Below, piece after piece: positions 14,368 through 15,324 of a stretch of 36,349 nt of DNA. Source of the DNA: Polyangium aurulentum (GTDB lineage: Bacteria > Myxococcota_A > Polyangia > Polyangiales > Polyangiaceae); assembly GCA_945875545.1 (NCBI GenBank), contig CAMCKZ010000027.1, positions 1-36,349 on the forward strand, in the 5' to 3' direction. The notes below the pieces were generated by a model. The model worked only from the letters and a program-made list of their open reading frames with translations. It had not been told where the DNA came from and did no database searches. Each line of letters opens with the position of its first letter. Positions within the stretch are counted from its first letter, which is position 1. A program made the position numbers and the translations under genes.

Positions 14368-14535
14368 TCAGGGACCGGCCTTGGACGCGCCAGCATCGGC
14401 GCCAGGACCGCAGCCCGCCGCCGCATCGCCGGAACAAACCGCGGTCACGCCCTCGCTGCACGCGGAGATGGTTGAAAGAAACGGTGCGAGCAGCGCGAGG
14501 GCAAACGCAAGAGGAAGAGGTCGAAATGGTCTCAT
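14368..14535 (-). CDS. Small putative lipoprotein (55 aa)
   Basis: From the ATG at 14535 the product starts MRPFRPLPLAFALALLAPFL, a short basic start and hydrophobic core, and reaches the lipobox-like ISAC at about residue 25. The remaining 30 residues (CSEGVTAVCSGDAAAGCGPG, then an Ala-rich end) hold two further cysteines and no domain. The Shine-Dalgarno sequence is poor. It sits 73 bp upstream of the next lipoprotein gene in the same direction, and its start lies 18 bp from the inverted-repeat element at 14553-14745. It could be a real small lipoprotein or a shortened remnant of a larger one. Confidence 0.5.
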   Translation of the reverse strand: MRPFRPLPLAFALALLAPFLSTISACSEGVTAVCSGDAAAGCGPGADAGASKAGP

Positions 14536-14552
14536 GAGAACTTGCGGACGAC

Positions 14553-14745
14553 TAGGGCGGTTTTCAATCGCGTCGAAGAAGGTTGGTCGAGGGCGCGCAG
14601 CGGAAAGCGTGGCGGCGGGCGGCATCACGCGCTCCACCCCCCATTCTATCCCATTCTGCTGCACAATGGGGGGGCCATGCCGCATTCTGCGAAGCAGAAT
14701 GAGTAAGCATGGGGTTTGTGGGTCCCCGGGTCGAAAACCGCCCTA
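14553..14745. mobile_element. MITE-like element with 13-bp inverted ends and TA termini
   Basis: TAGGGCGGTTTTC at 14553-14565 is repeated perfectly inverted as GAAAACCGCCCTA at 14733-14745. Both ends carry TA, as expected for a non-autonomous element of the IS630/Tc1-mariner type, which duplicates TA at insertion. Inside are two more structures: CCCCCCATT (14637-14645) against AATGGGGGG (14665-14673), and a long hairpin in which CCATGC (14675-14680) pairs with GCATGG (14707-14712) around CATTCTGC-GAA-GCAGAATG (14683-14701). There is no transposase frame. The right end coincides with the stop codon of the AgmX/PglI-type lipoprotein gene. The alternative is a structured RNA or regulatory region; a second genomic copy is needed to decide. 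Confidence 0.5.
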
Positions 14746-15324
14746 ACGCCCGCCACGGATGAAGTTGCACGGAACCAAGCCCTCAAAGCAACCGGCGGAA
14801 GGAATCGGCACCGTGCCGCGGAAAAGACTTGCAACGCATGCGCCCATGTGCGGGCTGCCGGTTTCGTCGCTTTCGACGGTGGCCGAGCACAGCGCTCCGT
14901 TGGAAGCCACGTGGACACGCACCGAAACGCGCCCCTTAAGGTCGGGGTTGTTCGCCAACTCGGTTTCGTAGCAGCGGCGAGCGAGGCGGCACTTTCCGCC
15001 GAGCGCGCTCTCGAGGTCTTCATTGATGCTGCCGTAACAGGGGCCTTTTCTTTCGCAAACGCCCGCAACGTGCGGAGCCTGGAGGGCGGGACCCGAGGCC
15101 AGACCGGCCGCGGCGGCAGGCGGGCCGGCGTCGACTTCGGCCGGAGGTGGCGGGGGCACCTCGTCTTCGGCGGAACCCTGGGCCGCAAGCTGTTCGACCT
15201 TCGCCGCCGGGGTAGAATCGACGTTGGCTGCCGGCGGTTGCGGTTTCGAACAGCCCGAGACGCCCAGTAACAAAACGAGGCCACCGAGGGAATGTGCGAA
15301 AGACCGCAGGGGACCGTGTTCCAT
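14743..15324 (-). CDS. Lipoprotein with AgmX/PglI-type C-terminal domain
   Basis: A 193-residue predicted lipoprotein. Residues 1-24 form a signal peptide (SLGGLVLLLGVSGC) with the lipid-modified cysteine at 25. A Pro/Ala/Glu-rich linker runs to about residue 85. The C-terminal domain has the TonB-like pattern RRCYETELANNPDLKGRVSV (116-135) followed by RVHVASNGAL, as in the AgmX/PglI C-terminal family known from myxobacterial gliding proteins. That domain holds eight cysteines (90, 96, 112, 118, 146, 163, 179, 186), suggesting disulfides in the periplasm. The role is unknown; the TonB-like fold suggests protein-protein contact across the envelope. Confidence 0.72.
   Translation of the reverse strand: MEHGPLRSFAHSLGGLVLLLGVSGCSKPQPPAANVDSTPAAKVEQLAAQGSAEDEVPPPPPAEVDAGPPAAAAGLASGPALQAPHVAGVCERKGPCYGSINEDLESALGGKCRLARRCYETELANNPDLKGRVSVRVHVASNGALCSATVESDETGSPHMGACVASLFRGTVPIPSAGCFEGLVPCNFIRGGR

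Follow-up and report, generated by a model that had tools for sequence, protein, structure and literature searches.

A probable IS630-type miniature transposon whose end coincides with the stop codon of a lipoprotein gene

The question raised by this locus is what the 193 bp of DNA between two co-directional lipoprotein genes (both on the minus strand) represent, bounded as they are by exact inverted repeats, and how one end of this DNA comes to coincide with a stop codon. The DNA analysed, referred to as the window, is the whole stretch of 36,349 nucleotides. The element is very probably a non-autonomous miniature transposon of IS630 type (Tc1/mariner superfamily). The features on which the argument turns are the following (families A and B and genome G135 are described below).

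14553 to 14745, minus strand: the whole insert, with the duplicated TA target counted at both ends; its first base in the minus-strand reading is 14745; perfect 13-bp inverted ends; missing at the same gene pair in both congeners.
14733 to 14745, minus strand: terminal inverted repeat 1, TAGGGCGGTTTTC; 12 of its 13 bases are the same as in the ends of family A, family B and the IS630 copies of G135.
14553 to 14565, plus strand: terminal inverted repeat 2, TAGGGCGGTTTTC.
14743 to 15324, minus strand: upstream lipoprotein gene, 193 aa, with a lipobox-like GVSGC and an AgmX/PglI-like C-terminus; its TAG stop is common with the element end.
14368 to 14535, minus strand: downstream lipoprotein gene, 55 aa; its ATG (14535-14533) is 17 bp from the element (first annotated as 18 bp).
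14636 to 14714, no strand assigned: a pair of REP-like palindromic hairpins inside the element, with 17 further partial matches in the same genome.

The initial annotation had described a 193-bp stretch with exact 13-bp inverted ends, and the ends lie precisely where it placed them; the element measures 193 bp with both TAs, and 191 bp as inserted. A MITE has perfect or near-perfect inverted repeats and a length of ~100-400 bp, and 13 perfect bp at 193 bp agree with both. The element is non-coding and, as annotated, has no room for a transposase: all frames of 80 aa or more that touch it extend into the flanks, and none is confined to it. Nowhere else in the window do two perfect 13-mers form an inverted pair with a spacing of 40-300 bp. 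Such a match had been called very unlikely by chance; for the window alone (36 kb, first-order Markov sequence) this holds for 13-mer pairs starting with TA, of which ~0.017 are expected (1 in 60 simulations), and does not hold for perfect pairs of any kind, of which ~0.5 are expected. The genome-wide count settles the matter: with up to 1 mismatch, the 13-mer end motif has 28 matches in the element's own genome, and the reversed control has 3.

The upstream lipoprotein gene ends in a TAG stop (14743-14745, minus strand) that consists of the TA of terminal repeat 1 and the G that follows it, so that the annotated coincidence of the right end with a stop codon is borne out. This gene scores 39.9 bits against the NCBIfam model myxo_SS_tail, for which the cut-off is 40, and its orthologues in the congeners (L073, L074) stop at the corresponding residue. 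In the congeners a short lipoprotein-like frame begins a few nt past the upstream stop, which provides synteny for the 55-aa gene. (On the minus strand of 14368-14685 the element opens an in-frame extension of the downstream gene, such that a start inside the element, yielding 105 aa, can be read. Use of that start is unlikely, given the lipoprotein signal at the inner ATG.)

Most of the 28 end-motif matches read TAGAGCGGTTTTC, and many of them bound other short elements, which fall into two families. Family A elements are 111-135 bp long, run from TAGAGCGGTTTTCAGTCGCATTGACC to GACCGTAAACCGCTCTA and have 14 matches in the same genome; family B shares the left end of family A and closes with GAAAAGGGCGCTA. 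Copy numbers in this genome are taken from searches. Counting the window copy, at least 20 copies with shared ends are present, that is, the ends are common to 19 other bounded elements that could be read end to end. Between such ends the interior of the window copy is unique, and no clear alignment of it with family A or B was seen inside the 13-bp ends. Of the further copies expected in the initial annotation, other elements with the same ends exist; of the 193 bp as a whole, no second full-length copy exists in the genome, and given this, the window copy may be old or rearranged. Family A extends to the congeners (5 matches in G002 and 2 in G001); at the threshold used it has no match in 27 more distant genomes, and an exact 20-mer of it has none in the named genome collection. 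Searched at the protein level, that collection yielded one named relative, an uncultured delta proteobacterium MAG.

Some of these short elements have a visible internal construction. Family B (L025, L027, L028 and L034, position 1501 to ~1710) is composite: an inner 60-bp unit that has its own CCGCTCTA end is linked to a TAGCGCCCTTTTTCCGAAG unit, which is also found beside a family A copy in L037. In genome G087, position 1501 of L136 and L140 holds a minimal element of 47 bp, TAGAGCGGTTTTC...GAAAACCGCTCTA, whose 13-bp ends are perfect; a 48-bp relative of it, with the same following sequence, is found in L117.

Evidence of insertion comes from sites at which the element is missing. The same gene pair stands without insert in both other genomes of the genus, G001 and G002 (L073, L074), where the spacer between the two genes is about 3 and 24 nt; the empty sites that had been suggested as a check on transposition therefore exist. 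When the element and one TA are removed from its own genome, what is left reads ...RGGR TAG, 15 nt, ATG. The upstream proteins of the congeners end in ...RAGR and ...RGGH, both with a TGA stop, so that the TTAG target of the window copy is reconstructed (and not seen as such in an empty site). TA at both ends of an insert, together with an empty site in relatives, is what is expected of a MITE. Two further empty sites belong to family A: at a sigma-factor gene, the element follows LRRYYRD in L148 and plain sequence stands in the congeners (L149, L150); at a MATCAP gene, the element lies at the gene end in L041 and is not present in G002 (L144). For the 20 copies that were read at both ends, reconstruction of the target gives YTAR; two of them have one degenerate TA (on the left in L042, on the right in L048). 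An IS630 derivative should have a TA (CTAG-like) target, and YTAR is close to the CTAG of IS630.

The same comparisons bear on another reading, in which the space between the two lipoprotein genes holds a conserved structured RNA or an attenuator. In favour of it, folding is strong on both strands (on the minus strand, -87.7 kcal/mol, z -4.65). Yet the same gene pair does without the element in both congeners, the ends are present at many unrelated loci, and Rfam yields no match at gathering score (the best, mir-2820, reaches 26.6 bits against a cut-off of 84, and what it matches is the palindrome). The initial annotation had named a single copy, conserved at its locus in relatives, as the outcome that would point to RNA; the 193 bp are single-copy, but the locus is empty in the relatives. 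On the strength of the empty sites and the Rfam result this reading is rejected as most improbable. A terminator was also considered and rejected, no terminator-like site being called in the element. The window contains no tRNA.

For the preferred reading, that of a miniature transposon, the source of the transposase is the next question. No DDE_3 match was found in the genome's own assembly (G000), which is 97.5% complete and in 188 contigs, and from which IS copies are easily lost; a matching transposase in the same genome would support the assignment of a MITE and does not strictly define it. In G135, a genome of the same taxonomic family, the end motif lies ~0.2 kb from six DDE_3 matches. 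Five copies there, read end to end, are 1141 bp long with ends TAGAGCGGTTTTC / TAGAGCGGTTTCC (end sequences TAGAGCGGTTTTCGCTCGAGTGCGGTACA and TAGAGCGGTTTCCACTCGGGTTCGGTACA) and have YTAR targets. The transposase (DDE_3, 8.6e-25) is represented in L121 by two overlapping frames that match an IS630 transposase model in consecutive parts (NF033545, 7.8e-25 and 6.1e-16, each frame alone below the curated cut-off). The ends of the window element have 12 of 13 bases in common with the left end of this IS630, so that ends matching those of an IS630 with its transposase, the hallmark of an IS630 derivative, are supplied by the G135 elements. The assignment of the TA termini to TA-target transposition of the IS630/Tc1-mariner type is upheld by these ends and by the YTAR targets, and the predicted IS630 with matching ends does exist, in G135 rather than in the element's own assembly. 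When 13-mers were paired around DDE_3 matches at 36 relative loci, a single candidate emerged, L050 in G012, whose ends, TACAGCGG(C/T)TCTC, are weaker.

The two inverted repeats that had been noticed inside the element are real, and belong to a different repeat. All 17 further partial matches to the hairpin pair lie within element positions 77-167, and none reaches the ends. The REP-like unit is also found, near position 1500 of the respective loci, inside elements with other ends, among them those of the GACCCTCGCCG type (L002, L004, L005, L008) and of the GCGTTTCCCAGCG type (L003, L062, L065). (The unit CCCCAT...CCCATTCTGC...CAATGGGG...GGGTCCCCGACG occurs inside at least 3 unrelated classes of longer repeat, some of it in tandem copies on contig C154.) What lies nested in the element is an independent REP-like repeat and not part of the MITE proper, and since the hairpin pair is found elsewhere inside unrelated elements, the window copy is chimeric. 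One could turn this relationship around and take the hairpin for the mobile unit, with the 13-bp ends as incidental or as the outer stem of a terminator-like structure: the unit is clearly repetitive, and, of the whole element, only the interior has DNA matches at other places in the genome (at E 0.001). That arrangement is very unlikely. The REP copies at other loci are without these ends, which in turn bound other elements that have no REPs; the empty site and the terminal TAs agree with the outer ends and not with the REP boundaries; no terminator-like site is called in the element; and a Y1_Tnp (RAYT) gene, by which a REP/RAYT system would be recognised, was not found in the genome.

The coincidence with a stop codon, returning to the miniature transposon reading, is not peculiar to the window copy. 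One end doubles as the stop codon of a supported gene in 14 of the 20 copies, the support being a Pfam match for 13 (including L043, which is below gathering score) and orthologues for the window copy; that ends often fall on stops is an established feature of the element family. A greedy ORF map of the window makes 8 of its 73 YTAR sites gene stops, or 8 of 25 when only sites outside genes are counted. The enrichment of stops has p 4.5e-7 against all YTAR sites and p 0.017 (odds ratio 5) against those outside genes. The latter comparison is the fairer one because selection removes insertions inside genes; the enrichment that it shows is modest, the gene map is crude (it omits the stop of the window's own lipoprotein gene), and the excess had been noticed before it was tested. 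The outcome also depends on how genes are supported: an earlier codon-position composition test placed 8 of 20 copies at stops, an even weaker excess (p 0.04 against all YTAR sites, 0.17 against intergenic ones only), and was replaced by the Pfam and orthologue evidence on account of its insensitivity, having missed the window's own lipoprotein gene.

YTAR gives a stop on either strand, and TAG is restored by the leading G of the element. A further component might be added to this account, namely that transposase or host actively targets gene ends, beyond what YTAR and selection bring about. The excess itself (supported stops for 14 of 20 copies, compared with 8 of the window's 25 non-coding YTAR sites) is in favour of such targeting; on the other hand, a YTAR target by itself makes stops likely landing places, the removal of genic insertions by selection works in the same direction, and the IS630 copies of G135 have no clear preference for stops. 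Active targeting is therefore considered unlikely. Somewhat less doubtful, and put forward tentatively, is a stop-specialised IS630-type MITE family, in which YTAR and the leading G rebuild TAG whichever strand bears the gene and which offers other repeats, REP pairs for example, a place to land. Were this the case, such a family would spread through the gene ends of a dense genome and leave its proteins unchanged.

The history of the window copy may be pictured as follows. A transposase recognising TAGRGCGGTTTTC-type ends would have cut out the element (in a cut-and-paste reaction, with the mobilising enzyme inferred) and inserted it, with duplication of the target, into the TA of a TTAG in which the lipoprotein gene had its TAG stop. 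With the G at the start of the element, TA would again become TAG, and the length of the upstream protein would therefore be kept and the insertion tolerated. The REP-like hairpin pair would have been gained by nested insertion or by rearrangement. With the element in place, the spacer between the co-directional genes has gone from ~15 to ~206 nt, and its sequence is highly structured. The longer spacer and its strong RNA fold might reduce expression of the downstream gene or uncouple it; the element probably has no designed host function.

No description of such elements in this bacterial group was found in the open-access papers searched, and none of a stop-codon preference of IS630-type MITEs in the literature searched. 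The present analysis adds families of miniature transposons at genus level, together with three loci at which the site is empty in relatives and the matching IS630 of a relative; the stop-codon pattern offers a simple and testable account of how a TA-target element settles harmlessly in gene ends. BOX elements of the pneumococcus overlap 36 annotated genes to which they contribute the stop codon (PMC3049150).

The closest described analogue is RUP of Streptococcus pneumoniae (107 bp; proposed mover, IS630-Spn1), which is likewise small and non-coding, with a TA target and ends that match an IS630 (PMC2229807). It differs in sequence and host; here a related genome alone provided the matching IS630, and the window copy carries a REP pair. 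IS630 and ISY100 (Tc1/mariner superfamily) duplicate TA, as is the case here, and ISY100 inserts almost only at TA (PMC2170065); these are autonomous elements, whereas the window element codes for no transposase. The title of Tenzen and Ohtsubo (1991, cited in PMC2170065) gives TA in CTAG as the preferred site of IS630; compared with the preference named in that title, the YTAR target of the present family is wider. The inner hairpin pair resembles REP/BIME palindromes in its opposite orientation and in being scattered through the genome, and is distinguished from them by its occurrence, in a genome in which no RAYT was found, inside several unrelated longer repeats.
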